A stretch of 40,620 bases of DNA, taken from NCBI GenBank assembly GCA_937867415.1, contig CALMKO010000086.1, positions 1-40,620 of the forward strand. The letters run 5' to 3'. Below the pieces are notes generated by a model, which saw nothing but the letters and a program-made list of their open reading frames with translations, did no database searches and was not told the DNA's origin. The translations under genes were made by a program, and so were the position numbers. Below, piece by piece: positions 16,639 through 34,009 of this stretch. The first letter of the stretch is position 1. Each line of letters starts with the position of its first letter. Source of the DNA: an uncultured Verrucomicrobiota bacterium. GTDB taxonomy: Bacteria > Verrucomicrobiota > Verrucomicrobiia > Verrucomicrobiales > Akkermansiaceae.

Positions 16639-17346
16639 ATGGCAAACATCTTCCCTCGCTGGTCCAACTTACTACCTCTCAAGATCGCCGTCTGTGCCGG
16701 GACCGTGGCGGCTGGAGTAGCTCTGGCAATCACCTACTACGCCACGCCCAAAACCACAGTCGTAGGCTACCAGCCTTCGCAGCCGATCCCATTTTCCCAC
16801 AAGATCCACGTCGACCAACTCGGAATGGACTGCCGCTACTGCCACTCGTTCGTGGACGTCGCCGGCCACTCGAACGTTCCTACCGGCAGCACCTGTTGGA
16901 ACTGTCACCAACACGTCCAGCGTGACAGCCCGAAACTCGCACCCTTGCACAAGTCGATGGATGTGAACTACCCGGGTTACGATGGCAAGCCGATCGAATG
17001 GGTTCGTGTGCACAAGACTCCTGACTACGTCTATTTCAACCACTCCGCCCACGTCAACCGGGGCATCTCATGCCAAAGCTGCCACGGCGACGTGAATAAA
17101 ATGGAGGTTGTTTACCACGCTGAATCTCACTCCATGGGATGGTGTCTTGATTGTCACCGCGCCCCCGAGAAGCACCTGCGCCCCCTTGAAGAGGTTTATA
17201 ACTTCAACTACAACGCACAGGACTACCTTTCGAAAAATCCAGAACTCGCCAAACAAGGCGTCAAGACCATCGAGGATCTTGGGATCAAGCTCAAGGAACA
17301 GTTCATGGTGAAGCCCAAGGAAACCTGTGCCGCCTGTCACCGTTGA
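16639..17346 (+). CDS. actA: ACIII subunit ActA, pentaheme cytochrome c
   Basis: ActA is the multiheme c-type subunit of alternative complex III, which replaces cytochrome bc1 by oxidising quinol and passing electrons to periplasmic carriers. The 235 residues include an N-terminal membrane anchor (about 13-34) and exactly five CxxCH heme motifs: Cys65-His69, Cys86-His90, Cys145-His149, Cys169-His173 and Cys230-His234. The fifth motif ends one residue from the C-terminus. Additional His residues (for example in FSHKIHVDQ and FNHSAHVN) are typical distal heme ligands. It is the first gene of the respiratory operon and begins 33 nt after the CRP-like dyad; actB follows after 36 nt. Confidence 0.95.
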   Translation: MANIFPRWSNLLPLKIAVCAGTVAAGVALAITYYATPKTTVVGYQPSQPIPFSHKIHVDQLGMDCRYCHSFVDVAGHSNVPTGSTCWNCHQHVQRDSPKLAPLHKSMDVNYPGYDGKPIEWVRVHKTPDYVYFNHSAHVNRGISCQSCHGDVNKMEVVYHAESHSMGWCLDCHRAPEKHLRPLEEVYNFNYNAQDYLSKNPELAKQGVKTIEDLGIKLKEQFMVKPKETCAACHR

Positions 17347-17382: not shown

Positions 17383-20300
17383 ATGAGTAAGCGCATTTGG
17401 CATCACCCCGAAGTTCCCGCAGGCGAAACCACCGTCGCTTGGCGCAGTGCGGGCCAGCTTGAGGACACCGCCGATTTCCGGCAATGGCTCGACCGCGAGT
17501 TCCCTCAGGGGGCTGCCGAGCTGGCGGATGGCTCCGAGTCGGAAACCTCTCGTCGTTCGTTCCTGAAACTCATGGGGGCATCCACCGCTCTGGCGGGTTT
17601 CGGCATGGTCGCTTGCCGCCGTCCCGAGGCTTACATCGTTCCATACACCAAGGCCCCAGAGTGGGTCATCCCGGGGAAAGCGACCTACTACGCATCGTCG
17701 ATGCCTCGCGCTCAAGGTGCCACACCACTGGTGGTCACCACTTTTGAGGGACGCCCCACCAAGCTGGCTCCCAACAAGCTCCATCCCGATGCGGACGGCA
17801 CGGACGCCTTCGCGCAGGCCTCCGTTCTCGATCTCTACTCTCCTTCGCGCTCAAGGACTTTCCTCAAATCCGGTCAAAAAGCCGCACGCTCGGAGTTCGA
17901 GGCGACTCTCGCCACTCTTGCTGCCGACAAGGCTGCTAAAATTGGGTTCCTCTTCGGTGCCGACGACAGCCCTACCCGCACCCGCCTCACCAAGGAGCTC
18001 GCCGCCAAGTTCCCGGCTGCCAAATTTTATCAATACGAAGCCCTGACCGGTGACGCCGCCAACGTGGCGCTCGGCGACGGCGTGAAATTGGTTGCGGATT
18101 TTACCAAGGCGGATCGCATCGTCTCACTCGACTGTGACTTCGCAGGGACCGACTCCCAAGGCCCGGTGACGCCTTTCTTCGATCGTCGCAAGCCTGAAGG
18201 GAAGGCTTACGAAAACGCGCCGGACGCTGCGACCATGAATCGCCTCTATTCCGTCGAGGCTGCCTTCACCCTCACCGGTGGAATGGCCGATCACCGGCTG
18301 CGGGTTTCACCGAGCCAGGTGAACGCCGTGGCGGCGCAAATCGCCCGCGGTCTCGGCATCCAAGTCGGTGCTGCGATCGTCACCCCGGCCCTTACCGACC
18401 CCATCGAAATCGCCTGGGTGGATGGACTTGTTGCCGACCTCAAGGAGAATGCCGGGAAATCCGCCGTCCTGGTCGGCTCGCGCCAGAGCCTCTCGCTCCA
18501 CCTCATCGCTTTTGCCATCAACTCCGCCCTTGGCAACATCGGCGAGGGGAAGCCGCTTCTCGCCGTGCAAACGGGCTTGAAGGGCCTGGCAGACATCGCT
18601 GCCCTCAAAAAGGATATCGACTCCAAAGCGGTTGAAACACTCGTCCTCCTGACTCCTTCAAACCCGGTCTATGACGCTCCTGCCGATCTCCAGTTCGCGG
18701 AATCCCTCGCCAAACTGAAGACCAGCATCCACCTCGGGACCCGCACCGACGCGACCGCTCACGCCGCCACCTGGCATGTTCCGGCAGCCCACTACCTCGA
18801 ATCCTGGTCAGACGCACATACCGCCAGAGGCACTTATACGGTAGTGCAGCCGATGATTCTTCCGCTCTACAAGGATTGTGTCTCGGAACTCGAGCTGCTC
18901 ATCGCCCTTCTGTCTGACGGCGGAAAGCTCCTGAACGGTGAGGGTGAAAAAGGTGCCGCCTCTCCTGCATATACCGCCGTCCGTTCCACCTTCTCCGCAT
19001 TGGGTGGAGCGGGAGAAGCTGCTTGGAAAAAGCTCCTCCGGGATGGCTTCTTCGACGGCCCAGGCTATCCGGTTGTCAGTCCAAGCCCTCGTCCGGATAC
19101 TTCTGCCCCCTTGCTCGGATTTGCACCCACCAAGGATGCGCTCGAGGTCATTTTCTCGACAGACTCGTCCATTTTCGACGGTCGCTGGATTGACAACGGC
19201 TGGTTGCAAGAGGCACCGGATCCCATCTCCAAGCTGACTTGGGACAACGTCGCATTGGTTGCTCCCAAAACCGCCAAGGAACTCGGGATCTACGACCAGA
19301 TCGTTCAACTCCAAACCCAGTTTGCATCTCGCTCGCCTGACGACGAAGCGCAAAACAGGACCTCGCCCATGATCAACGTCACGGTCAACGGTCAGAGCCT
19401 GGAGATTCCCGTTCTCGTTTCCTTCGGCCAAGCGGAAAACACTCTCGTCATCCCGCTCGGTTACGGCCAGGGCTTTGATGAATCGGACGAACTCGAGCGA
19501 GGCCCCAGGAATGCGTCCCACGTCGGACTGGTCGGCGTGAATCGTGGATTCAACGCTTACCCGCTCCGCACCGCCACCTCTGCCTACTTCGCCGCCGGAG
19601 CCAAGGTGACTCCGCTCAAAAAGCGCTACTCAGTCGCCCTTACCCAAGAGCACAGTGCCATGTATGGCCGCGCCCTTGCCCGGGAAATCTCCACTCAGGA
19701 TGATGTGGTCAAAGGCTCTTTCGTCGCGCAGCTTGATGACGTCGCCAAACAAGGCAACGACTCCCACGCTCCGCCGAACATTTCTCTCTATAAATCCGAA
19801 GATCGCTCTGGGAAGCCACTCATCAACGATCCTCTCCACCAGTGGGGGATGTCCATCGACCTCTCCTCCTGCATGGGCTGCAACGCCTGCTTGGTCGCCT
19901 GCCAATCGGAGAATAATATCCCGATTGTCGGAAAGACCCAGGTCGCCATGGGGCGCGAGATGCACTGGATCCGCATGGACCGCTACTTCGCTTCTCAGGA
20001 GTTCGCGACCGACGAGCACGGCAACAAGATCAAGGAAAACGGCGAATACAAAAAGAACCCCGAGTGGATCCGCGATAACCCGGCCTTCGTCCCGCAGCCT
20101 GTCGCCTGTGTGCATTGTGAATCCGCACCTTGTGAAACCGTCTGCCCCGTCAATGCCACCATCCACACGGAAGATGGTCTCAATGCCATGGCTTACAACC
20201 GCTGCATCGGAACCCGATACTGCGCGAACAACTGCCCCTACAAGGCCCGCCGCTTCAACTACTTTGACTACAACAAGCGCAACCCGCTCATCGCCCACAA

Positions 20301-20769
20301 CCTCTACAAGGGGCCCTTCGGCGAGAAGCAGACGGGTGAGGCGCCACACCTCCAAAAGAATCCGAACGTCACCGTCCGGATGCGCGGGGTGATGGAAAAA
20401 TGCACCTACTGTGTCCAGCGCTTGCAGGACTCTGTGATTCGCCAGAAGCGTGGCCAAAAACAGGAAGCTCTGGTCGCTGGCAAGCCATCCACCGAGATGC
20501 AAGTCAGCGTCAATACCCTCCGCATTCCTGTGGATTCAGTCAAAACCGCCTGTCAGGACGCCTGCCCAGCCGGGGCCATCACCTTTGGAAATCTCCTCGA
20601 CGAGGAGAAATCCGCCGTAGGACGCAGCAAGCGCATCAAGCGGAACTACGACCTCCTCAACTACATCGGAACGCTTCCACGCACCAGCTACCTCGCCCGC
20701 GTGAAAAATCCGAACCCGAACATGCCTGACGCCAAGTTCATCGGCAAGGCCACCGTCCACATGGTCTGA
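17383..20769 (+). CDS. actB: ACIII subunit ActB, molybdopterin-enzyme-like / iron-sulfur fusion
   Basis: This is the 1128-residue periplasmic core of ACIII. Residues 57-75 carry a twin-arginine signal (RRSFLK) followed by a hydrophobic stretch ending in Cys78 (GMVAC), placed about 55 residues in, as ActB proteins often show. The middle is homologous to molybdopterin oxidoreductases; in this family that domain has no Mo cofactor. The C-terminal part is a ferredoxin-like domain with cluster ligands at Cys830/833/836/840, Cys909/912/917/921, Cys941/947/951 and Cys1007/1010/1057/1061, matching the three [4Fe-4S] plus one [3Fe-4S] known for ACIII. It relays electrons from quinol toward the ActA/ActE hemes. 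It is followed by actC after 43 nt. Confidence 0.96.
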
Positions 20770-20812: not shown

Positions 20813-22291
20813 ATGGCATCCACCATCGAAAAAGCACCTGAGACCCACACTGGAGTGAAACTCCCAGTGCTTGAGCGGGAAAAGCTCATTCTCAGCGGAA
20901 GGTCCTACCACTGGATCACGGAACGCATCTGCGGCGTTCTGGAAAATCGCCAACCCTTCCTGTGGTGGCTGATCTTCCTTCCCTCGGCACTCATTGCGCT
21001 GATCGGCGTGGGGGGCGGGCTGACCTATCTTGTTTCCACGGGCGTCGGCGTCTGGGGAATGTCGAACCGGGTCTTCTGGGGCTTTGATATCACCAACTTC
21101 GTGTTCTGGATCGGTATCGGTCACGCAGGGACCCTGATCTCGGCGGTCCTTTTCCTCACCCGCCAGAATTGGCGAACCTCCATCAACCGCGCGGCGGAGG
21201 CCATGACCATCTTCGCTGTGATTTGCGCGGGTATCTTCCCCGCCTTCCACGTCGGCCGGGTCTGGTTCGCTTGGTTCCTCGCCCCCGTACCGAATGCCAA
21301 TGCCATCTGGCAAAACTTCAAGTCGCCTCTTCTCTGGGACGTCTTCGCCGTCTCCACCTACTTCACCGTCTCGTTGATTTTCTGGTATCTCGGAATGGTT
21401 CCCGACCTCGCCACCATCCGTGACCGCTGCAAGCCCGGCCTGCGCAAGGTGCTCTACGGGATCTTCGCCCTCGGATGGCGCGGCGGAAACCGCCAGTGGA
21501 GCCACTACGAGATGGCTTACCTCCTCCTTGCCGCACTTTCCACACCCTTGGTGCTCTCGGTTCACTCGGTCGTCTCCTTCGACTTCGCGACCTCGGTGGT
21601 TCCTGGTTGGCACACCACCATCTTCCCTCCCTATTTCGTCGCCGGTGCCATTTTCGGCGGATTTGCCATGGTTCTCACGATCATGGTGCCCGCCCGCTTC
21701 ATCTACGGCCTTCAGGATCTCATCACCATGAAGCACATCGACAACATGGCCAAGATCATCCTCCTCACGGGCACGATAGTCGGCTATGCCTACCTCATGG
21801 AGCTTTTCGTCGCCTTCTACTCGGGCGCGATTTATGAAATGGACGCCTTCAAGTTCCGCATCGCCGGTCCATATTGGTGGGCCTACGCAGCCATGATGGG
21901 CTGCAACGTGCTCGCACCACAGGTCTTCTGGTTCAAGGCTTGCCGTGAAAACCTCTGGGTCATCATGATCGTGGCCATGTGCGTGAACGTGGGAATGTGG
22001 TTCGAACGCTTCGTCATCATCTGCACCACCCTCGCACGGATGTGGCTACCGGGCGATTGGAAAACCTACTCACCCAGCGGCGTGGAGTTGATGACTTTCG
22101 TCGGCACCATCGGACTCTTCCTCACATTGTTCATGATGTTCCTGCGCTTCCTGCCCTGCATCAACATTGCCGAGGTCAAGTGGACACTTCCGGAGTCGGA
22201 CCCACACTTCGACGACAAGAATGACCACCCGGACCACGGCGTTGTCATCGAACCCGCCTATCAAAAAGAGCTCGCTGAGAGCAACGTCTGA
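20813..22291 (+). CDS. actC: ACIII subunit ActC, NrfD-like membrane protein
   Basis: The 492-residue polytopic protein has about ten membrane segments, including [21 protein letters not shown] near the start and [17 protein letters not shown], in the NrfD/PsrC fold. In ACIII this subunit forms the quinol-binding site near the periplasmic side beside ActB. The motif [13 protein letters not shown] and the later [12 protein letters not shown] are conserved in ActC/ActF proteins. It ends with an acidic soluble tail ([14 protein letters not shown]). The gap to actD contains a short AATCT-type repeat. Confidence 0.95.
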
Positions 22292-22322: not shown

Positions 22323-22880
22323 GTGAGCACCACCCGCAAACGCGTTTATGGTTACCTGGCCGAGTTCAAGAGCGCTTCCGCTCTGTATAAGGGCGCGGAA
22401 AAAATCCGCGACGCCGGCTTCAAGAAGTGGGATTGTTATTCCCCCTATCCGATTCACGGGCTCGATGCGGCCATGGGCATGAAGCGGTCGATCCTCCCCT
22501 GGTTCGTCTTCTTCGGTGGTATGACCGGCACGGCTACGGCTTTTGCCCTCGCCTACTCGACCCAGGTGTTGATTTACCCCACCATCGTCCAGGCCAAGCC
22601 GGTGAACATTTTCACGGTTCCAGCGTTTTTCCCGATCATGTTCGAGCTAACCATTTTGTTTTCCGGCTTCACGGTTCTTTTTGGGTTGCTCGCATTGATG
22701 CAGCTCCCACGCCTCAATCACCCGCTTTTTGCCAGCAAGCAGTTTCACCGCGCCACCGACGACGGCTTCTTCCTCGCCATCGAGGCGCGGGATCCGAAGT
22801 TCAGCCCCAGTGGCACTCGTGAGCTCCTCGCGGATATCGGCGGCTCCAACATCGAACTGGTCGAGGAAGAGGATTCCTAA
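22323..22880 (+). CDS. actD: ACIII subunit ActD (DUF3341)
   Basis: The 185-residue protein has a soluble N-terminal domain (YLAEFKSASALYKGAEKIRD, then WDCYSPYPIHGLDAAMG) and two membrane helices (PWFVFFGGMTGTATAFALA; PAFFPIMFELTILFSGFTVL), the standard ActD layout. In ACIII it is a structural subunit without cofactors. The start is GTG at 22323, 31 nt after actC; no ATG is available nearby. The C-terminal segment (FLAIEARDPKF) is also family-typical. Confidence 0.92.
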   Translation: MSTTRKRVYGYLAEFKSASALYKGAEKIRDAGFKKWDCYSPYPIHGLDAAMGMKRSILPWFVFFGGMTGTATAFALAYSTQVLIYPTIVQAKPVNIFTVPAFFPIMFELTILFSGFTVLFGLLALMQLPRLNHPLFASKQFHRATDDGFFLAIEARDPKFSPSGTRELLADIGGSNIELVEEEDS

Positions 22881-22921: not shown

Positions 22922-23572
22922 ATGCGTTACTTCTTTCTAATCTACGCGCTCGTCGCGTTGCTCGTCGTCGGAATCTTCGGAATCCGTGGCCAGAAGTTTG
23001 AAAAGCCTCCGGTCCGGATCTTCCCGGATATGGATAATCAGGACAAACTCAAGGCCCAAAAGCCGGACGCCTTTTTCTCAGATGGTATCGGTTCCCGGCT
23101 TCCTGTGACTCAGACCCAGCCCCGCGGCTTCAATGAGGCAGGCGCCAAGTCCATCGGCGGGATCTCGGAATACGAGTTCGGCGGCCAGACGGGCTACTAC
23201 TACACCGGCCACCTCGGGGATTATTTCGGCAACGGGATGCCGGAAGAACTCAAGCTCACCGAAGCATCCGCGCAGTCCCTCATCCAGCGGGGTAAGGAGC
23301 GCTACGGCGTTTACTGTGCCATCTGCCACGGTGCATCGGGAGATGGCCAGGGAATCACCGGCAACTACGGAGTTCCCGGTATCGCCAATTTCCATCTCGC
23401 CAATTTCAAGTCGGATTCTTACCCCGACGGCCGTATGTTCGAAGTCATCACCGTCGGCAAAGGCATGATGGGTGGTTACGGCTACAACATCCCCGTAGAG
23501 GATCGCTGGGCGATCATCGCCTACGTCCGCACGCTGCAAGTTGCCAAAGATTCGCAAGCCAAGGCCCAGTAA
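22922..23572 (+). CDS. actE: ACIII subunit ActE, monoheme cytochrome c
   Basis: The 216-residue protein has an N-terminal hydrophobic segment (FFLIYALVALLVVGIFGI) and one heme c site, CAICHG, at about residues 137-142. The methionine-bearing region near GKGMMGGYGYN probably supplies the distal ligand. No lipobox Cys follows the hydrophobic segment, so it is likely anchored by the uncleaved helix. ActE carries electrons between ActA and the downstream acceptor in ACIII. The ATG overlaps a small degenerate repeat-like spacer after actD; actF follows after 22 nt. Confidence 0.92.
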   Translation: MRYFFLIYALVALLVVGIFGIRGQKFEKPPVRIFPDMDNQDKLKAQKPDAFFSDGIGSRLPVTQTQPRGFNEAGAKSIGGISEYEFGGQTGYYYTGHLGDYFGNGMPEELKLTEASAQSLIQRGKERYGVYCAICHGASGDGQGITGNYGVPGIANFHLANFKSDSYPDGRMFEVITVGKGMMGGYGYNIPVEDRWAIIAYVRTLQVAKDSQAKAQ

Positions 23573-23594
23573 CAATTTTCCTGACATCAACGAA

Positions 23595-24908
23595 ATGGCA
23601 CACCACCACCACGTCACCTCCGCCGACATCGCGATCAACGGCGATCATCTCGATCCGTCCAAAAGCGCAAAGATCAAGACCAGCGCCCTGATCGTGATGA
23701 TCCTTGGCACCTTGGCGAGCGTTTATCTTTTGTTCTTCGGGCCCGAAAAACTTCAGGGAACCTACGCCTATTCCTGGTTATTCGCATTCTACTTCTTCCT
23801 CACGCTCTCCATCGGTGGCGTGTTCTGGACACTTCTCCACAATGTCTCCAACTCCAGCTGGGGCACCTCCGTCCGCCGCGTGTTTGAAAACCTGGGCTCG
23901 ACTTTCCCCTGGATGTTTCTTTTCGCCATCCCCCTCTTGCTCCCTCAGGTCCAGCATTATCTCTACGAGTGGATGAACATTCATCGCGAGGCGCATGGAG
24001 CCGTGAAAGAGCATCTCCACCACGCGGACCACCTCCTTTACAATAAGTATTGGTATATGAACATCCCGTTCTGGTACGGGCGGATGCTATTCTATGCGGT
24101 GGCTTTCAGTGCGGTGATCATCCTTCTCCGCAAGCTCTCCACCGATCAGGATACGGATCCCAATCCCGGCACGGCACGCCTGCTCAAGGCCCGCTATCAC
24201 TCGAACTACCCGCTCATCATCTTCGCGTTGACCATCACTTTCACGGGCTTCGATTTCGCGATGGGCCTCGATTACAAGTGGTTCTCCACGATGTGGGGCG
24301 TCTATTTGTTTGCCGGAGCGGCGCTTAACTCGATGGCGGTCATCGTGCTCGTCTGCACTTGGTTGAAAAGCCAGGGCCACCTCAAGCATGTCACGGGACC
24401 CGAGCACTTTCACATCATGGGCAAGCTCATGTTCGCCTTCACAACATTCTGGGCCTATATCACCTTCTCCCAGTTTTTCCTGATCTGGTACGCCAACATC
24501 ACCGAAGAGACATCCTACTTCCTCATCCGCAATACCGGTAATTGGAACATCGCGAACTATGTGCTCGTGTTCGGTCACTTCGTAGTTCCTTTCGTGGTCC
24601 TGCTTCAGGCGTGGTTGAAGAGGAATCCCAAGCTCCTGTCCATCGTCGCGGTTTACACCTTGGTGATGCATGCCCTCGACCACTACCTGATCGTCATTCC
24701 GGAGCGAGGAGTCTCTCTCGGGAAAATCGCTCCTGAAATCTTCGGTGATATCCAGGTGTCCATTCCCGGAGCCTTCTGGGGGGATATTCTCGCTTTCGTG
24801 ACCATCGGAGCAGGTTTTGTTTTCTTCCTTCTTCGCGCTCTCGGCCAACATTCACTCTACCCAAACCGCGATCCGCGCATCCTCGAATCCGCGAACGTCT
24901 CTAACTGA
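23595..24908 (+). CDS. actF: ACIII subunit ActF, NrfD-like membrane protein
   Basis: From the ATG at 23595 the protein is 437 residues; an in-frame start at 23541 overlaps actE and is rejected. It has about ten membrane segments and is the second, shorter NrfD-like subunit of ACIII, paired with ActC. The N-terminus MAHHHHVTSADIAINGDH is histidine-rich. Motifs such as YYFFLTLSIGGVFWTLLHN-type first helices and FTGFDFAMGLDYKWFSTMWG in mid-protein match ActF. It closes the actABCDEF set, and the next gene starts 14 nt later. Confidence 0.93.
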   Translation: MAHHHHVTSADIAINGDHLDPSKSAKIKTSALIVMILGTLASVYLLFFGPEKLQGTYAYSWLFAFYFFLTLSIGGVFWTLLHNVSNSSWGTSVRRVFENLGSTFPWMFLFAIPLLLPQVQHYLYEWMNIHREAHGAVKEHLHHADHLLYNKYWYMNIPFWYGRMLFYAVAFSAVIILLRKLSTDQDTDPNPGTARLLKARYHSNYPLIIFALTITFTGFDFAMGLDYKWFSTMWGVYLFAGAALNSMAVIVLVCTWLKSQGHLKHVTGPEHFHIMGKLMFAFTTFWAYITFSQFFLIWYANITEETSYFLIRNTGNWNIANYVLVFGHFVVPFVVLLQAWLKRNPKLLSIVAVYTLVMHALDHYLIVIPERGVSLGKIAPEIFGDIQVSIPGAFWGDILAFVTIGAGFVFFLLRALGQHSLYPNRDPRILESANVSN

Positions 24909-24922
24909 TATCTTCTTTGCAC

Positions 24923-25681
24923 ATGGACCCATCCCGCGACAATCCCATCCTCCGTTTCGCCACATTCTGGTGGGGACTTGGAACCTTTTTGATCTTTGCA
25001 ATGATCCTTGCTGCTATTTGGATTTTTGTGAAATCCAATCCGGCCACTCTCGAAGATGCAGCGGCGCAACCGCGCTATGCGACCAAGGCCAAGGTCGATG
25101 AGGCACAGAAGGCAAACATCTCCCAGGAGGCAATCGACGCGGCGATGCTAGCCGTAGGCAAGAAGCTTCTTGAGTCCAAGCCTGCTGCGGTCGAACTCCC
25201 TGCTCAGGTGGTGCCCGGCTCTGAGACTGCCAAAAAGCTGGCAGCCGCCCCTGCGGTGGATACCTCTGCGATTGATGCGGCTCCTGCTGTCCCTGACGCG
25301 CCCATCGATCCTGCGGTCATGGAGGCGGGTAAGGTTTCATACATGCTCTGCGGCGCTTGCCATGGCCAAAATGGCGAGGGGGGGGCCATCGCACCGCCGC
25401 TCGCTGCATCCGAGTGGGTCACTGGCCCGGTTTCCAATTTGATCAAGATCCAACTTCGTGGGTTGATCGGACCCATTTCAGTAGCCGGAAAGGAATACGA
25501 CATGCCGGGCGGAATGGCAGCGCTGAGCTATCAGACGGATGAGCAGATTGCCTCGGTCCTGACCTATATCCGCAACAGTTTCGGTAACAAGGCCTCCGCC
25601 GTGACTCCCGCACAGGTTGCAGCCCTCCGCAGCGAAGTTGGCAAACCCCAGGTCACTGCCGCCGAACTAATCAAACCTTAA
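24923..25681 (+). CDS. Membrane-anchored monoheme cytochrome c
   Basis: The 252-residue protein has one N-terminal membrane helix (about 14-36), a long Ala/Pro/Val-rich linker (about 85-130) and a C-terminal cytochrome c domain with heme site CGACHGQ (Cys143, Cys146, His147) and likely distal Met in EYDMPGGMAAL. It ends with a short conserved-looking tail (VTAAELIKP). It lies between actF and the CcoN-like gene. A tethered cytochrome here would suit electron transfer from ACIII to the aa3 oxidase, whose subunit II carries no heme of its own. A related tail (MVTAAELEAG) occurs in the second cytochrome at 27986, so the two may be paralogues. Confidence 0.88.
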   Translation: MDPSRDNPILRFATFWWGLGTFLIFAMILAAIWIFVKSNPATLEDAAAQPRYATKAKVDEAQKANISQEAIDAAMLAVGKKLLESKPAAVELPAQVVPGSETAKKLAAAPAVDTSAIDAAPAVPDAPIDPAVMEAGKVSYMLCGACHGQNGEGGAIAPPLAASEWVTGPVSNLIKIQLRGLIGPISVAGKEYDMPGGMAALSYQTDEQIASVLTYIRNSFGNKASAVTPAQVAALRSEVGKPQVTAAELIKP

Positions 25682-25700: not shown

Positions 25701-27209
25701 ATGTCTTCCGCTAACACAACTACCAGTGACCAGGACGCCTTGCTGCGTGCGGGAATTGATCGCTCCTTGCGCCACCCGGTGATGTTCTTCCTTACCAGCG
25801 GTGCCGCGTGGCTCGCTGTTTCGATCGTCTTGGGTATTCTCGCCTCGGCAAAGGTCCATAGCCCGGAGTTTCTTGCCGGCTGTTCCTGGTTGACCTACGG
25901 ACGCGTTTTTCCAGCTCACATCAATGCGCTGATTTACGGTTGGGGATTCCAAGCGGCGTTTGGCGTTTTGATTTGGATGATGGCTCGTCTTTCCCGGAAG
26001 GAGTGCACAGCTGCCGGGATGATCCTCGCCGCAGGTCACATTTGGAATCTCGGGGTCTCTCTAGGCCTGGTCGGGATTCTTGCCGGATTTGGCACGGGAA
26101 TGCCATGGATGGAGTTCCCTGCATTCGCGTGGCCTGTTCTGCTCTTTAGCTATATTGCCATTCTGGTCTGGTCTTTCATTCAATTCCGGGTTCGCCCTGC
26201 AGGGCATGTGTATATCTCCCAGTGGTATTTCCTCGCTGCCATGATCTGGTTCCCATGGATCTACATCACTGCCAATACCCTGTTGCATTGCCTGCCGGGC
26301 CATCCGGTCATGGCTAATGGAATCAATGCTTGGTTCAAGTCGGGCGTGATCTTCCTGTTCTTCACTCCGGTCGCACTTGGGACTGCCTATTACCTCGCGC
26401 CCAAGGTCACGGGCCAGCCGGTGCATAGCTACTCTCTCGCAAGGGTCGGTTTCTGGTCCCTCGCATTGATCGCTCCCTGGGCGGGGATGCAGAAGTTGCT
26501 GGGTGCGCCAATTCCTTATTTTCTCCCCTATGTCGGCGCGGCCGCTACGGTCTTGCTCTTCGTGCCACTCATCACAGCCGCACTCAATATCCTGCGGACT
26601 TCCATGTCATCTCCTGAGACTCTCGCGGCCAGTCCTTCGCTCAGATTCATGATCGCCGGTATCACCGGCCTCGTGGTCCTCGTCGTGGCCGGTGTCGTTC
26701 TCAATCTGCCTGGGTCCACCCTGCCGCTCACCCAGTTCTCCATGTCGGGCTACGGTTTTGAAATCCTCGCCATCTACGGGTTTTTCAGTTTTGTAATGTT
26801 TGGCGCGGTTTATTTCATCGTCCCCCGGGTAACCCGGCGCGAGTGGCTGTCACGGCGCTTGATGAAAATTCACTTCCTGTTCTCGGTCTATGGAATCCTT
26901 ACCGTCGCTCTGATCGCATTGTTCGGCGGGCTCCAGCAAGGCATCGGTCAGGAAGACTGGCAACAACCGTGGCAAAGCGCCGCCACCCGCGCCTATCCCT
27001 ACGCGGTGGCTACCACGATCGCTTGGTGCTTCATTCTTTTTTCAAACATTTTCTTCTTCCTCCATCTCGCCTTGATGTGGCTGCGGCTTGGGCGTAGGAG
27101 CTCCCACCCGACTCTCCTGGTGGCTGCGCATGATCATCATTCGGCAAGCCCGCATGGTGAGGAGGGTGATATTGACAATGCCGGTCCCGGGCACATGCCT
27201 GCTCACTGA
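25701..27209 (+). CDS. CcoN-like heme-copper oxidase homologue lacking all active-site ligands
   Basis: The 502-residue, roughly 12-helix protein is homologous to subunit I of cbb3 oxidases. Helix II retains His73 (FPAHINALIYGWG), one ligand of the low-spin heme. Ungapped comparison with remembered CcoN segments shows the other ligands gone. The CuB His of WYGHNAVGFF is Ser214, and the CuB pair of WAGPHHLHY is Gln264-Lys265 (WAGMQKLLG). The active-site Tyr is Ala258, and the heme b/b3 pair of GHVHSGALG is Phe353/Ile355 (GFEILAIYG). The flanking framework is well kept (YYLAPKV, AVYFIVPRVT, MKIHFLFSVYGI). It therefore cannot bind CuB or a high-spin heme and probably binds no heme. It is followed by a CcoO-like gene 37 nt later. 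The C-terminus is His-rich. The probable role is structural; catalysis is excluded by these residues. Confidence 0.85.
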   Translation: MSSANTTTSDQDALLRAGIDRSLRHPVMFFLTSGAAWLAVSIVLGILASAKVHSPEFLAGCSWLTYGRVFPAHINALIYGWGFQAAFGVLIWMMARLSRKECTAAGMILAAGHIWNLGVSLGLVGILAGFGTGMPWMEFPAFAWPVLLFSYIAILVWSFIQFRVRPAGHVYISQWYFLAAMIWFPWIYITANTLLHCLPGHPVMANGINAWFKSGVIFLFFTPVALGTAYYLAPKVTGQPVHSYSLARVGFWSLALIAPWAGMQKLLGAPIPYFLPYVGAAATVLLFVPLITAALNILRTSMSSPETLAASPSLRFMIAGITGLVVLVVAGVVLNLPGSTLPLTQFSMSGYGFEILAIYGFFSFVMFGAVYFIVPRVTRREWLSRRLMKIHFLFSVYGILTVALIALFGGLQQGIGQEDWQQPWQSAATRAYPYAVATTIAWCFILFSNIFFFLHLALMWLRLGRRSSHPTLLVAAHDHHSASPHGEEGDIDNAGPGHMPAH

Positions 27210-27246: not shown

Positions 27247-27948
27247 ATGAGCTTACGTCTATTTATTCTCGGTCTTTCCGCCTCGTTCGGGGTTGCTTGG
27301 TTATGCGTAGTGATCGTGCCCTACTTGAAAATGCGTGATCTCGCTCCGATCGTGCTGGATGAGGCGAAGGACGGCAAAACCGGGATTTTCTATCCAAAGC
27401 GCACGGGTAGAATTGCAGACGGGGCCAAGGTTTATGCTGAAAACGGCTGCTACCTCTGCCATACCCAAGTGGTTCGCCCGACTTACGCGGGTAACGATTT
27501 ATACCGTCCGGACTGGGGTGGTCTTAAATCGGATCCAGATCGCGGCGACACCCGCCGCGAGACCAATCCCTACGATTTCTTCGGCGAGAAATTCGCTCAA
27601 GTTGGTGTCTCACGGATGGGGCCGGATCTTTCCAACCTCGGGCGCAGGGTGGAGTCGATCTACGCGGTAGGTGGAGATCCTGCACAGTGGTTGTTCGCTC
27701 ACCTCTACAATCCCCGCGCCGAGCCTGCTCGCTATAGTTCAACTTGTCCCTCCTATCGTTTCCTCTTCGAGACCCGCCGTGTTAAAGGTAACCCCTCGCA
27801 GGCGGCGCTTCCATTCCATTCCCCGGAAGGAACGGAGCTGGTCCCAAGTTCGGATGCGAAGGCGCTGGTTTCATACCTTCTTTCCCTGAAAAAGGACCAG
27901 CCAGTGCCGGCGGTATTGAATTTCTCACCGCCGAAAAACAACGGCTAA
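27247..27948 (+). CDS. ccoO: CcoO-like membrane-anchored monoheme cytochrome c
   Basis: The 233-residue protein matches subunit II of cbb3 oxidases: an N-terminal membrane anchor (about 4-26), heme site GCYLCHTQVVRP (Cys68, Cys71, His72), and downstream motifs DLYRPDWGG and SRMGPDLSNLGRR, the latter with the likely distal Met. In cbb3 enzymes CcoO passes electrons to the catalytic subunit. Here its partner CcoN-like protein has no active site, so the heme must deliver electrons elsewhere, perhaps to the aa3 oxidase encoded downstream. All CcoO features appear intact, which argues that the pair is functional. Confidence 0.9.
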   Translation: MSLRLFILGLSASFGVAWLCVVIVPYLKMRDLAPIVLDEAKDGKTGIFYPKRTGRIADGAKVYAENGCYLCHTQVVRPTYAGNDLYRPDWGGLKSDPDRGDTRRETNPYDFFGEKFAQVGVSRMGPDLSNLGRRVESIYAVGGDPAQWLFAHLYNPRAEPARYSSTCPSYRFLFETRRVKGNPSQAALPFHSPEGTELVPSSDAKALVSYLLSLKKDQPVPAVLNFSPPKNNG

Positions 27949-27985: not shown

Positions 27986-28750
27986 ATGTCTAAGCAGAAT
28001 GAAAATCCCGACCTTGATGAGTCCATCAATGTGTCCGAGGCGCACTCCAGCGTTGTTCGCGAGGCGGCGGCTTGTGCTCGCGAAAAGCGTATCGTAGAGA
28101 ATGGTATCGCTCCTGTCTCGCTCTGGGCGGTGGTTGCCTGCGGTGTCGTTCTTCTCATCGCAGGGGGGATCCTCGGTGCTGGCGGCAACTTGTTCGCCTA
28201 TGGCAGCACCTACCGCGAGGGATACGTGAGGACCGCTCCGCCGGGAATGGCCGATACCGGCCCTGTCCCGAAGGAAGCTCTTGCAGCATACATGGCCAAG
28301 GGCGCGAAAATTTATTCGGCCAAGTGCAACGGCTGTCACGGCTCTGATGCCAAGGGTAATGGCTCTACCTTCCCGACTCTCGTCGGATCCAAGTGGGTGC
28401 TGGGGGAGACCGAGCGCTTCGCCATGGTCATTCTCAATGGTCTTCAGGGACCTGCCAGCACCGGCAATACCTACGGGGTCATGCCTCCTCAGGGAATCGG
28501 AATGACCCCCGAGGATCTCGCAGGCATCATGACTTATGTGCGCAACAACTTCGGAAATTCCGTCGGCGATGTCGTCACTACCGACATGGCCAAGGCGGCT
28601 ATCGAAACCTCTGCGGCACGCAAATCCGCGGGAAACATGGTCACCGCGGCTGAACTCGAAGCAGGCCACGTCAAAGCCCTCGCTGGCGAGGCGCTCGACC
28701 CAAAGGCTCTTCTCGATCCCATCACCTTGGCTCCTGCCAAGGCTCCTTAA
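27986..28750 (+). CDS. Membrane-anchored monoheme cytochrome c (CcoP-like position)
   Basis: The 254-residue protein has a 40-residue polar N-terminus, one membrane helix (about 43-66) and a cytochrome c domain with heme site CNGCHGS (Cys114, Cys117, His118). GVMPPQGIGMTPEDLAGIMTYVRNNFG (cited here only by its first and last parts, MPPQGIG and YVRNNFG) is the usual distal-Met and C-terminal helix region. The tail MVTAAELEAG resembles that of the 24923 cytochrome. It occupies the place of ccoP but has one heme instead of two. The aa3 subunit I gene follows after 45 nt. Confidence 0.87.
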   Translation: MSKQNENPDLDESINVSEAHSSVVREAAACAREKRIVENGIAPVSLWAVVACGVVLLIAGGILGAGGNLFAYGSTYREGYVRTAPPGMADTGPVPKEALAAYMAKGAKIYSAKCNGCHGSDAKGNGSTFPTLVGSKWVLGETERFAMVILNGLQGPASTGNTYGVMPPQGIGMTPEDLAGIMTYVRNNFGNSVGDVVTTDMAKAAIETSAARKSAGNMVTAAELEAGHVKALAGEALDPKALLDPITLAPAKAP

Positions 28751-28795: not shown

Positions 28796-30700
28796 ATGAG
28801 TTCTCACGCCACCACCGACACCGGGCACGATGCCCATCACGACGACCACCACCACGATCCGGGCTTCATCAGAAAGTGGATTTTCTCGACCGATCACAAG
28901 ATCATCGGCCTGCAATACGGTATCACTGCGCTACTCTTCCTTGCTTTCGGCTTCTACCTGATGATGGTGATGCGCTGGAGTATCGCTTATCCCCACCAGC
29001 CCCTTCCCGAGTGGATGAGTTGGGTGTTTACGGATGGTTGGAAAGCCCGCTGGCTTCAGGATGGCAAGGTGACCGGTGAGACCTATAACATGTTCGGTGC
29101 CATGCACGGGACCATCATGGTGTTCCTTGGGATCGTGCCGCTTGGTTTTGGCGCGTTCGGAAACTACGTTACGCCCTTGCAGATCGGAGCGCCCGACATG
29201 GCGTTCCCGCGCCTCAACATGGCGAGCTACTGGATCTACCTCCTTGGTGGCTTGATCATGTGCGGTTCCTTCTTCTTGGAATCCGGCTCCGCGAAATCCG
29301 GTTGGACGAATTACTCGCCGCTTGCAGGCTTCGCAGACGGCCAGATCGTCAACCAGTGGCTCGCTGGGCAGACGCAGTGGCTCGTCGGGCTTGTGTTTTT
29401 GATCACTTCCTCGCTCCTCGGATCGGTCAACTTCATCACCACCATCATCAACCTCCGCGTCAGGGGGATGACCTGGATGCGCATGCCCTTCTTCGTCTGG
29501 GCCATGCTGGTCACGGCATTCCTGCTTCTCCTTGCGTTCCCGCCCCTCGAGGCTGCCGGTATCATGCAGCTGATGGACCGTGTCGCACATTCATCGTTCT
29601 TCATGCCTTCCGGCCTGTTCACCAAGAGCGAGGGTCTTGCCGACCTTTCCGGCGGTGGCTCACCGCTCCTTTTCCAACACCTGTTCTGGTTCCTTGGTCA
29701 CCCGGAGGTCTATGTGCTCCTGCTTCCTGCGTTCGCGTGTGTGGCTGAGATCATCCCGGCAAATACCCGCAAACCGCTTTGGGGCTACAAGTCGATGGTT
29801 TACTCGGTTCTCGCCCTCGGTTTTCTTTCCTTCGTTGTGTGGGCGCACCACATGTATATGACTGGAATGGGCGCGGCGGTTTCCACCTTCTTCCAAACCA
29901 CGACGGTCCTGATCTCAGTGCCTTCCGTGGTGATCATCACCGCATTACTCATCTCGCTATGGGGTGGCTCCATCCGCTTCACCCCACCGATGATGTGGGC
30001 CTGCGCATTTATCCCGATGTTTGGAATCGGCGGGCTTACCGGGCTTCCTCTCGCATTCAATCTCGCAGACCTCCATCTGCACGATACTTACTACGTGATT
30101 GGTCACTTCCACTACGTCGTGGCTCCGGGGATTCTTTTCGGCTTCTTTGCAGGAATCCTCCACTGGTATCCCAAGTTCACCGGACGTTACATGAGCAAGA
30201 CGCTCAATCACCTCCACTTCTGGCCTAGCCTGGTTTGTATGAATCTGATCTTCTTCCCGATGCTTGTCCAAGGCATGGCCGGATTCCATCGCCGCTGGTA
30301 TAATGGTGGCGATGCCTACCTCGAAAAGGCTGCTGATGGAGTGAACGTGTTTGGCCAGACTGTGGCACAGCACATCGATCTTAATATCATCATGTCCATG
30401 GGAGCTTGGACCTTGGCGCTCTTTCAGATTCCATTCATCATCAATCTTTTCACTGCCTGGAAAGTTGGTAAAAAAGTCGAGAATGACAACCCTTGGAATG
30501 CCACAACGCTTGAGTGGGCCACTCCGACACCTCCCGGCCATGGCAATTTCCTCAAGGAGCCTGTGACTTACCGTGGTCCTTACGAATACAGTCGCGAGGA
30601 TTGTGAAGATGACTTCCTCCCTCAGTGGTCGGCCCCAAGGCGCCTCGATCCGGCTATCGCCCCCGGTGGGACTGAATCCAAGCCAGTGGCACACTCCTAA
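28796..30700 (+). CDS. ctaD: Cytochrome c oxidase subunit I (aa3 type)
   Basis: The 634-residue protein is the catalytic subunit that reduces oxygen and pumps protons. All cofactor ligands are present: His104 and His439 for heme a, His437 for heme a3, and His302, His351 and His352 for CuB. Tyr306 is in GHPEVY, the cross-linked tyrosine position. The D-channel Asp134 (GAPDMAFPR) and Glu304 are also present, as in A1-type oxidases. The K-channel lysine is not: the segment normally VPTGVKIFSW reads VPSVVIITAL, so Lys is Ile380. The N-terminus (residues 8-20) is a His/Asp cluster, and an acidic soluble tail of about 90 residues closes the protein. Gene order is I-III-IV-x-x-II. Confidence 0.95.
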   Translation: MSSHATTDTGHDAHHDDHHHDPGFIRKWIFSTDHKIIGLQYGITALLFLAFGFYLMMVMRWSIAYPHQPLPEWMSWVFTDGWKARWLQDGKVTGETYNMFGAMHGTIMVFLGIVPLGFGAFGNYVTPLQIGAPDMAFPRLNMASYWIYLLGGLIMCGSFFLESGSAKSGWTNYSPLAGFADGQIVNQWLAGQTQWLVGLVFLITSSLLGSVNFITTIINLRVRGMTWMRMPFFVWAMLVTAFLLLLAFPPLEAAGIMQLMDRVAHSSFFMPSGLFTKSEGLADLSGGGSPLLFQHLFWFLGHPEVYVLLLPAFACVAEIIPANTRKPLWGYKSMVYSVLALGFLSFVVWAHHMYMTGMGAAVSTFFQTTTVLISVPSVVIITALLISLWGGSIRFTPPMMWACAFIPMFGIGGLTGLPLAFNLADLHLHDTYYVIGHFHYVVAPGILFGFFAGILHWYPKFTGRYMSKTLNHLHFWPSLVCMNLIFFPMLVQGMAGFHRRWYNGGDAYLEKAADGVNVFGQTVAQHIDLNIIMSMGAWTLALFQIPFIINLFTAWKVGKKVENDNPWNATTLEWATPTPPGHGNFLKEPVTYRGPYEYSREDCEDDFLPQWSAPRRLDPAIAPGGTESKPVAHS

Positions 30701-30742: not shown

Positions 30743-32356
30743 ATGGAAATTCCTTACCTTGTCACTCCCCGTAAAGATACGGGTCTCTTCAATTCAAAAA
30801 TCGCCATTTGGTTGTTTCTGGCTTCTGAAGTGATGCTTTTCGGCGGGTTCTTCTCGGCTTACGTCTTCCTGAGATTGGGGGCGGACTATCCTTGGCCCGA
30901 GCGGACGCTTCCAGTCTTGCCGGGCTTGATCAACACCTTTGTGCTCATCGGTTCGTCGGTCACCGTTGTCTTCGCCTGGGCTTCCCTGAAGTTGCGGAAC
31001 TGGAGGAATTTCCAGATTTACATGGGCATCACCGTGTTTTGTGCGGTGGTTTTCATGGTTTTCAAAGGGATCGAGTATAACGTGAAGTTCCACCACCAGG
31101 CTGTGCGCTTGAAGGACTACACCGTCATCGAGGGGCATCTTGGATACGAGAAGGAGGGTGAGCAGTACGTGCTCGATCATAAGGGCAACCGTGTTGAGGA
31201 AAATCTGATCTTCATCGAGGCCTCCAAGCTGACCTTCAATACGGTCCGTTTCCATAAGCCTTGGGTTGATGAACTGCTCGGTCAGGCGGAGCACCGCAAG
31301 GCCAAGATCGTCCTCGCGGAGGATGTCTCGGCAGTGACCGAGGAGGGCAAGGCTCCAACCGTGATCGCAAAGGCAGGGGAACTTTTTTCCAACGATCTGC
31401 TCGGGAGGATCCAGAAGGAGCATCTCGCCGCTCGGTCCCACAACGGTCAGGAAAGGACTGACGCGCTGCGTGCGGAGTGGGTCAAGGCCAAGGCCGATAA
31501 CCCAGGCAAAAAGGGTTGGCAAATTGCCTCCACCGTCAACATCGACGCAGCCGCGCTTGCTCCGAAGCTTCTCACCGAGATTTCAACTGTCTCATTCAAC
31601 GTCGAGCCAGCGACGAAGTTCGAGTTTAAGCCTCGTGATATCAAGGAGGCGGATGGACAGTCCAGGCTCCGAGATGATACCGTGGTGGACGGTAAGCTGC
31701 TCGCCAGCCCGATGGTGTTCCATCACGTGGACGCCATCGATTTCCAACACCTGGCGATGAAGGCCGAAGCCAAGGGGCTTGATCCCATGCAGGCAATCGA
31801 AAATTCCTGGCTGATTCAGAACAGTCCGTTCGCGAAGGCGGCTTGGACATGGCATAAGGGCGAGGTTGCGAAACTCGAGAAGAAGTTGCTCGATGGCTAC
31901 GGTCTCGGCGACGATAAAAAGCCGAGACGCGTTCCGACCCATAAGGAGATGTACCGCATCGGCTGGAAAGATCTTGGCGCCAAGGCGGAGAGTGAGGGCG
32001 GTGTGAAACTTTCCTGGATGGACAAGACCAAGGAGGAGTTCCTCGGGCCGAACTATGACGCCCGTGGCGAAGCAACTTTCCCCGGCTTTTCAGTTCCTCG
32101 CGAGCAGGTCGGTTTTGCTGCCAAGTTCACGCCTGCCTGGAACACCTATTATGCCTTGTATTTCACCATGACGGGTCTTCACGGACTTCACGTGATCGGT
32201 GGTGCGCTGGTGCTGGCATATTATCTTTTCTTTGGGCGTAAAATGTATCTCGAAAACCCGGAGTGGCTAGCCAATCGGGTTGAAATCGGCGGCCTTTTCT
32301 GGCACTTCGTCGACTTGGTCTGGATCTTCGTTTTCCCGATCTTCTATTTGATGTAA
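30743..32356 (+). CDS. ctaE: Cytochrome c oxidase subunit III with large internal insertion
   Basis: The 537-residue protein is about twice the family length. Three helices (about 18-43, 62-82, 90-110) and two C-terminal helices (about 465-498, 515-537) match a five-helix subunit III, including FLASEVMLFGGFFSAY, FKGIEYNVKFHH, TGLHGLHVIGG and FWHFVDLVWIFVFP. Between the third and fourth helices lies an insertion of about 340 residues (119-457): hydrophilic, rich in Lys, Glu and Ala, with no heme motif. Topology inferred from subunit III puts it on the periplasmic side. The frame is uninterrupted, so it is a real insertion. Subunit III normally stabilises the D-channel side of subunit I. Confidence 0.93.
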   Translation: MEIPYLVTPRKDTGLFNSKIAIWLFLASEVMLFGGFFSAYVFLRLGADYPWPERTLPVLPGLINTFVLIGSSVTVVFAWASLKLRNWRNFQIYMGITVFCAVVFMVFKGIEYNVKFHHQAVRLKDYTVIEGHLGYEKEGEQYVLDHKGNRVEENLIFIEASKLTFNTVRFHKPWVDELLGQAEHRKAKIVLAEDVSAVTEEGKAPTVIAKAGELFSNDLLGRIQKEHLAARSHNGQERTDALRAEWVKAKADNPGKKGWQIASTVNIDAAALAPKLLTEISTVSFNVEPATKFEFKPRDIKEADGQSRLRDDTVVDGKLLASPMVFHHVDAIDFQHLAMKAEAKGLDPMQAIENSWLIQNSPFAKAAWTWHKGEVAKLEKKLLDGYGLGDDKKPRRVPTHKEMYRIGWKDLGAKAESEGGVKLSWMDKTKEEFLGPNYDARGEATFPGFSVPREQVGFAAKFTPAWNTYYALYFTMTGLHGLHVIGGALVLAYYLFFGRKMYLENPEWLANRVEIGGLFWHFVDLVWIFVFPIFYLM

Positions 32357-33214: not shown

Positions 33215-34009
33215 ATGAGTCCTTCCAAATTCCTCGGTATTCCGGAAAATTTTTCTGCCCACGGTGGTCAAGTCGATCACATGATCGATGTGGTGCATTG
33301 GTTCATGATCGCGCTGTTCGTCGGCTGGACCTTGTTCTTCTTTTACTGCATCTTCCGGTTCTGGCATCGCAACAATCCAAAGGCATCCTACACCGGAGTC
33401 CGTAGCCACTTATCCAGCCATCTCGAAGTAGGGGTAATCATCGTGGAAGCTGTTCTGTTGTTTGGTTTCGCTTTTCCGTTGTGGGCGGACCGGGTGGATC
33501 ATTGGAAACAAGTGCAAAACCTCAATCCTGTGCGCGTCCGCACGGTGGGTTGGCAATTTGGTTGGACTTATCATTACCCCGGTGCCGATAATAAGTTCGG
33601 TCGTAATGATCCCAATCTGATTTCGGGCACCAATGACCTTGGGATTGATTACACCGACCCCAATGCACTTGACGACTTCACCAGTCCGATCTTGAAGCTG
33701 CCCGTGGATCAGGCTGCCGTGCTCAACATCGGCACCAAGGATGTGATTCATAACTACCACATCATCCCGATGCGAATTCAGCAGGACGCTATTCCGGGTA
33801 AGGAAATCCCGATGTGGTTCACCCCGATCAAGACTTTGGAAACTTTTGTGGTTTGCGGCCAGCTTTGCGGCGAGGGTCATGCGAACATGATCGGAACCAT
33901 GGAAGTCACTCCAAAGGACCAGTTCGATTCTTGGTTCAAGGGGCAAACCGAAGCTGCTCTTAAGGCGAACAGCCCGAAGCCTGCGGCACCTGTCACTGCA
34001 CAGAATTGA
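33215..34009 (+). CDS. ctaC: Cytochrome c oxidase subunit II (CuA)
   Basis: The 264-residue protein has two membrane helices (about 29-49 and 70-90, the second with Glu78) and a C-terminal cupredoxin domain carrying the dinuclear CuA centre. Ligands are His179 (DVIHNY), Cys214 and Cys218 (CGQLC), His222 and Met225 (GHANM). The residue between the cysteines that supplies a backbone ligand is Gln216 rather than the usual Glu, as in some ba3-like oxidases. WQFGWTYHYPG is the electron-entry aromatic patch. There is no C-terminal heme c domain, so electrons must come from a separate cytochrome, presumably the tethered ones upstream. It is placed last in the oxidase set instead of first. Confidence 0.94.
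   Translation: MSPSKFLGIPENFSAHGGQVDHMIDVVHWFMIALFVGWTLFFFYCIFRFWHRNNPKASYTGVRSHLSSHLEVGVIIVEAVLLFGFAFPLWADRVDHWKQVQNLNPVRVRTVGWQFGWTYHYPGADNKFGRNDPNLISGTNDLGIDYTDPNALDDFTSPILKLPVDQAAVLNIGTKDVIHNYHIIPMRIQQDAIPGKEIPMWFTPIKTLETFVVCGQLCGEGHANMIGTMEVTPKDQFDSWFKGQTEAALKANSPKPAAPVTAQN

Follow-up and report, generated by a model that had tools for sequence, protein, structure and literature searches.

The window, a stretch of 40,620 nucleotides from an uncultured bacterium of the Akkermansiaceae (phylum Verrucomicrobiota), carries on its forward strand a respiratory operon in which the genes of an alternative complex III (ACIII) are followed by a cassette resembling cbb3 oxidase genes and by the genes of an A-type oxidase:

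16639..17346, + strand: ActA, 235 aa, with five CXXCH motifs and no additional cytochrome domain (motif count)
17383..20769, + strand: ActB of ACIII (sequence features, gene order)
20813..22291, + strand: ActC (sequence features, gene order)
22323..22880, + strand: ActD (sequence features, gene order)
22922..23572, + strand: ActE, a monoheme cytochrome c (profile, motif, gene order)
23541..24908, + strand: ActF, named by position and relatives; the true start may be downstream of the listed TTG
24917..25681, + strand: membrane-anchored monoheme cytochrome c, upstream of the CcoN-like gene (profile, motif)
25701..27209, + strand: CcoN-like protein, 502 aa, with the fold of cbb3 subunit I and without catalytic ligands (ORF, profile matches, alignment, AlphaFold model)
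27247..27948, + strand: CcoO-like monoheme cytochrome c of the FixO family, 233 aa (profile, AlphaFold model)
27986..28750, + strand: membrane-anchored monoheme cytochrome c of the Cytochrome_CBB3 family, downstream of the CcoO-like gene (profile, motif)
28796..30700, + strand: CoxA, A-type oxidase subunit I, with intact GHPEVY, HH and HFH ligand motifs
30743..32356, + strand: CoxC-like subunit III, 537 aa
32384..32725, + strand: CoxD-like subunit IV
33215..34009, + strand: CoxB, subunit II, with the CuA motif and no fused cytochrome c domain (motif scan)

No Pfam match was found for ActF. CoxA is, as judged from its sequence, the working oxidase of the operon. The CoxC-like protein is about twice the usual size, as it is in many relatives (529–685 aa), apparently owing to a large insertion between transmembrane helices.

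The operon, with the order ActABCDEF / small membrane protein or cytochrome / CcoN-like / CcoO-like / cytochrome c / CoxACDB, is conserved in about 70 public Akkermansiaceae loci, in line with an earlier reading made from the sequence only, which had described a tight respiratory operon. Across the class Verrucomicrobiia the cassette of CcoN-like, CcoO-like and cytochrome c genes lies directly downstream of ACIII, and the order ActB-C-D-E-F / CcoN-like / CcoO-like / cytochrome c was found in nearly all class relatives read (about 150 loci). Several lineages show no Cox genes beside the cassette within the stretch read. The gene preceding the CcoN-like gene encodes a short one-helix protein without heme motif in many relatives (L153, L165, L174 and L062 were compared) and a cytochrome c domain in the window's group, so that a heme domain was gained or lost at this spot. 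The same genome also encodes a true CcoNO fusion (contig C55), which scores 604.7 bits on the NCBIfam ccoN profile and has all ligands present.

The uninterrupted, full-length ORF of the CcoN-like protein matches Pfam COX1 (PF00115) over 414 residues (27–440) with 142.9 bits at a cut-off of 34.8 bits, while its match to ccoN is weak, with 105 bits at a cut-off of 583 bits. Among solved structures it is closest to five CcoN chains (E 1e-17 to 1e-23). An AlphaFold model built with 32 homologues (pLDDT 83, pTM 0.87) superimposes on CcoN from Pseudomonas stutzeri (3mk7) with Z 45.3 and 2.3 Å over 447 residues, and in the structure comparison the top five matches were all CcoN, followed by cytochrome c-dependent NO reductases. 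By descent and modelled fold the protein can be placed among the heme-copper oxidases with their 12-helix COX1 architecture, and the model agrees with the preserved framework of cbb3 subunit I and the complete gene that the sequence-only reading had recognised.

The protein was aligned with P. stutzeri CcoN1 (3mk7), the true CcoN from the same genome and about 95 relatives. The following codons were assigned by alignment and conservation:

25917..25919, + strand: His73, the sole retained heme-ligand position (P. stutzeri H60)
26340..26342, + strand: Ser214, on the CuB ligand position H207
26472..26474, + strand: Ala258, on the position of the active-site tyrosine Y251
26490..26495, + strand: Gln264-Lys265, on the CuB ligand positions H257-H258
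26757..26765, + strand: Phe353-Glu354-Ile355, replacing the HxH motif (H345 of heme b3, H347 of heme b)

A functional cbb3 oxidase has three CuB histidines, which are replaced here by Ser214, Gln264 and Lys265, and an active-site Tyr, which is Ala258; of the heme b pair H60/H347 and the b3 ligand H345 only His73 remains. Further replacements concern R57 (Phe70) and W203 (Ala210). Loss of catalysis is near certain from these replacements. Exactly these changes of the ligands and the Tyr had been given in the sequence-only reading, and the multiple alignment bears them out at every position; the ligand helices align without gaps to 3mk7 and to the CcoN from the same genome, in keeping with the three ungapped regions described there. 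His113, His169, His196 and His242 had been named as residues that might occupy the ligand positions instead, and none of them does so in the alignment: His113 is conserved in Akkermansiaceae, as is His391, but both lie off the ligand positions, and the family shows no conservation of His169, His196 or His242. The low identity of only about 20% to solved CcoN might suggest that the residues were misaligned and that the protein is a normal cbb3 oxidase whose histidines have shifted. We give this practically no credence, as the alignment is ungapped against several intact intermediates at 35–41% identity, the model superimposes over 447 residues, and no unassigned conserved His lies at the right positions. 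In our literature search we found no paper describing ligand loss in an ACIII-linked CcoN-like protein; the surveys Refojo 2010 and 2012 lay outside this search and may note it.

About 68 public Akkermansiaceae homologues have the ligand losses in common, except that some lineages show a lone His at either 214 or 264, and all of them possess His at position 73 wherever it is covered (67/67). The replacing residues are variable, with S, G, Q, Y, A or H at position 214, F, Y, L or M on the former b3 ligand position and I, V, M or L on that of the former heme b partner. Erratic losses had been named as a finding that would speak against a retained role; in Akkermansiaceae the losses themselves are shared and only the replacing residues are not fixed. 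A search of 388 genomes of the phylum revealed CcoN-type relatives in 123 of them, with the single-gene form linked to ACIII found in the class to which the window belongs. Scoring of ten positions (R57, H60, W203, H207, Y251, H257, H258, Y317, H345 and H347) separated the proteins mainly into two groups, one with all ten kept and one with most of them lost, and intact versions exist at the same operon position as dead ones. An intermediate state is seen in L186 and L187, where R57, H60, W203 and H347, the set belonging to the low-spin heme, are still present and the CuB ligands, the heme b3 ligand and the Tyr are missing. In Akkermansiaceae H60 is the only position kept, now and then together with a further His; Verrucomicrobiaceae retain H60 and in many cases H207, and several other dead lineages have lost H60 as well. 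The same losses are thus not fixed across Verrucomicrobiota, a point that the sequence-only reading had raised, as the site was lost several times separately and many relatives have a complete one. In other families of the phylum CcoN and CcoO are encoded as a pair of single genes with complete ligand sets and without ACIII in the vicinity (L088–L097); these pairs differ from the CcoNO fusions as well as from the ACIII-linked form.

His73 is invariant also in the Verrucomicrobiaceae sampled, and because of this complete conservation in two families the cofactor-free role proposed in the sequence-only reading remains unproven. The CcoN-like protein might bind one b heme via His73, with a second axial ligand that is unidentified or none at all, and act as a heme sensor or transmembrane electron relay. 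Such a function would be consistent with the invariant His73 beside a freely varying former partner position, and L186 and L187, which keep both low-spin ligands, R57 and W203 without the binuclear site, show that a heme-b-only state exists. We nevertheless consider it unlikely for the window's protein, as neither former ligand position has been taken over by another conserved His or Met, and several other dead lineages lost the His73 equivalent yet keep the gene.

To take a closer look at the history of these losses, three trees were compared. In the ActB+ActC tree of 85 loci intact and dead forms are interleaved, requiring at least 8–9 changes, or at least 13 losses under every rooting if regain is excluded. 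Irreversible-loss counting gave 8 losses on the CcoO-like tree and 3 on the CcoN-like tree, in which the dead branches are long and the program warns of false joins. A single ancient loss was rejected on these counts. The trees probably disagree because long dead branches attract each other, and cassettes might also have been exchanged between lineages. Because of this disagreement only a minimum of three independent losses of the active site can be called firm on the phylogenetic evidence, whereas about thirteen are likely. One case has the support of the ACIII tree as well as of the gene tree: L070 is dead, and its close relatives L191, L194, L202 and L203 are intact.

The dead state is old and under selection, not one of decay. 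For close Akkermansiaceae pairs the median dN/dS was 0.052 for the CcoN-like and 0.072 for the CcoO-like gene, compared to 0.036 for ActC and 0.029 for CoxA, and dozens of positions are invariant in the Akkermansiaceae CcoN-like protein. Together with the full-length gene and the conserved operon, this strong purifying selection indicates that the CcoN-like gene is retained, as the sequence-only reading had argued when it proposed a dN/dS analysis. Relative to ActB+ActC, the CcoN-like protein diverged by a factor of 0.8–1.9 in intact pairs, of 0.84–1.5 in Akkermansiaceae and their sister family and of up to 2.8 in other dead lineages, a pattern that fits a burst of change followed by new constraint. 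The variable residues at the former ligand positions and the roughly twofold faster change in some lineages, compared with intact members, could be expected from a relic in slow decay that persists by virtue of the useful operon around it. This explanation is very improbable: it would need a neutral dN/dS near 1 and is already contradicted by the observed selection, by ORFs that are full length almost throughout, by the invariant positions and by rates near those of intact members in the window's family and its sister family. Decay was rejected on these grounds.

Turning to the partner subunit, the CcoO-like protein matches the FixO profile with 40 bits at a cut-off of 29.6, and its AlphaFold model matches CcoO chains with a Z of about 10. 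Two of its features are relevant here:

27448..27462, + strand: CXXCH heme c motif, Cys68-His72 (sequence, conservation)
27745..27747, + strand: Cys167, on the distal Met ligand position (alignments)

The CXXCH motif is present in every relative examined, even beside a dead CcoN, and the heme c has thus outlasted the oxidase. In cbb3 oxidases the Met of an S-x-M-P motif is the distal heme ligand of CcoO. This Met is found in most other relatives and is replaced by Cys in 69/69 Akkermansiaceae CcoO-like proteins; Cys167 is their only conserved Cys outside CXXCH, and in a profile alignment to solved CcoO it falls exactly on the distal Met. We infer that Cys167 binds the heme, and that the CcoO heme of Akkermansiaceae has probably exchanged His/Met for His/Cys ligation; this change would reduce its potential or turn it into a redox gate instead of a simple relay. 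The description of the partner as an intact CcoO in the sequence-only reading has to be amended accordingly with regard to the distal ligand, while the heme motif is present. In L212, L213 and L078 the ORF with the CcoO-like protein is much longer (498–684 aa), suggesting an extra domain or a fusion.

The loss extends to verrucomicrobial methanotrophs. Genome G042 encodes a XoxF identical over 577 residues to PDB 4mae, which we take to be the methanol dehydrogenase of M. fumariolicum SolV, and three pmoA-type genes. Its CcoN-like protein (L100) shows G, S, W, E, S, S, H, F, F and V at the ten positions, from which we conclude that the ACIII-linked CcoN-like protein of SolV has no active site; the site is likewise lost in the ACIII-adjacent proteins of the methanotroph loci L084–L087. 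The other COX1 proteins of G042 are two of A-type, two that are related to each other and of which one was matched to ba3, and one without NCBIfam match. This last one, a 476-aa protein of the COX1 superfamily (L230:973-2403), is possibly a NO reductase subunit. None of these further COX1 proteins is recognised as a CcoN, and no other recognisable CcoN was found in the methanotroph genomes, SolV included. A review citing Refojo 2010 describes a functional cbb3 (C-type) oxidase adjoining ACIII in verrucomicrobial methanotrophs and Opitutaceae (PMC8498564), the Kam1 genome paper names the cassette a cbb3 oxidase beside ACIII and ties it to high oxygen affinity (PMC6688271), and the same assignment is repeated in PMC10205796 and PMC11102522. 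A functional cbb3 oxidase at the ACIII-linked locus of Methylacidiphilum is not supported by the residues at these positions. The "cbb3 oxidase" invoked there for high oxygen affinity lacks an active site, and published respiratory models of verrucomicrobial methanotrophs need correction.

Two small genomes of the class point to the function of the intact form. In G001 (99% complete; L196) and G146 (98% complete; L063) the intact ACIII-linked form is the single COX1 protein, and a cytochrome bd subunit I was found in neither genome. As the sole COX1 protein without cytochrome bd, the intact form is probably their terminal oxidase, making both genomes a natural system for showing the role of the ancestral form. 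Every sampled genome with a dead form has at least one further COX1 protein, so that loss of the site seems to occur where respiration is served by another oxidase. A stricter rule, according to which the form is dead only if Cox genes are adjacent, was unsupported: several dead cassettes have no Cox genes in the stretch read, and the intact L062 and L069 have Cox genes nearby.

What could a dead CcoN do beside ACIII? In cbb3 oxidases electrons pass from CcoP via CcoO and heme b to the heme b3-CuB site (PMC7876108). The CcoO heme of the window cannot deliver electrons into CcoN because the CcoN hemes are gone, and the path ends at CcoO. Direct bridges between ACIII and an oxidase are known as subunit IIc in Rhodothermus and as an extra cytochrome domain of ActA in Flavobacterium (PMC5928083); neither type is present here, since CoxB contains no CXXCH, and hence no cytochrome c domain, and the CXXCH motifs of ActA account for five hemes only. 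The cassette supplies up to three membrane-anchored c hemes, and their positioning between ActE and CuA by the dead CcoN-like protein would be the most economical reading. The best explanation, which we favour as moderately probable, is accordingly that this protein serves as a non-catalytic membrane scaffold holding c-type hemes that pass electrons from ACIII to the aa3 oxidase. By this reading it is the core subunit of an ACIII-linked C-type (cbb3-like) oxidase; the heme b3-CuB site and at least one ligand of the low-spin heme are lost. Next to ACIII, it would hold the heme c of the CcoO-like protein and the flanking monoheme cytochromes in place and in the right orientation. Electrons from ActE would then reach CuA of the neighbouring aa3 oxidase without a soluble carrier, bypassing the heme b of CcoN. 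Judging solely from the conserved operon, the cassette may be part of an ACIII supercomplex.

Some observations speak against this scaffold. The invariant His73 is not required by a purely structural role and leaves room for a b heme, and a bridging function is opposed by the lineages without Cox genes adjacent to the cassette and by the Cys-ligated heme, which would be a poor relay between two high-potential sites. The tight and conserved linkage to ActF, found also in loci without adjacent Cox genes, could also point to an assembly or stability subunit of ACIII, comparable to ActG or ActH, with no role in electron transfer. Accessory subunits of ACIII are known (PMC5928083). Such a function is improbable, as a pure assembly factor would not need the heme motif that the CcoO-like protein has kept in all lineages examined, and the intact members resemble a working oxidase. 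A bolder reading, which appears doubtful, is that the oxidase repeatedly became a non-catalytic adaptor of ACIII and that a switch of the CcoO heme to His/Cys ligation in Akkermansiaceae created a low-potential redox valve, sensor or catalytic c heme of a new kind on a heme-free CcoN.

In summary, the locus represents a clear and widespread case of a heme-copper oxidase core that is selectively kept after the whole reaction site has gone. As intact forms, intermediates with the heme b ligands only and dead forms occur at the same operon position, the conversion can be studied stepwise. The scaffold also provides a testable model for electron transfer from ACIII to an oxidase where a fused cytochrome c is absent. 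Compared to CcoN and CcoO of the cbb3 oxidases from P. stutzeri (3mk7/5djq) and R. capsulatus (6xkw), the cassette has the same folds, the same order of N, O and cytochrome c and the CXXCH of CcoO. It differs from them in the CcoN-like protein, which lacks the CuB ligands, the Tyr and two of the three heme ligands and scores weakly on ccoN, with 105 bits at the cut-off of 583 bits, and in the exchange of Met for Cys at the distal heme c position of CcoO. The published ACIII-adjacent C-type oxidase (PMC8498564) is the same cassette directly after the Act genes, but its active site is absent in SolV, related methanotrophs and many others, whereas it is intact in other relatives of the class. With the ACIII-caa3 and ACIII-aa3 supercomplexes of Rhodothermus marinus (PMC5928083) and Flavobacterium johnsoniae the operon shares the arrangement of ACIII followed by oxidase genes, and direct transfer from ActE to the oxidase, as proposed there, is likewise proposed here. 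In those two systems the bridge is a cytochrome domain on subunit II or ActA, whereas the operon of the window carries an N-O-c cassette instead.
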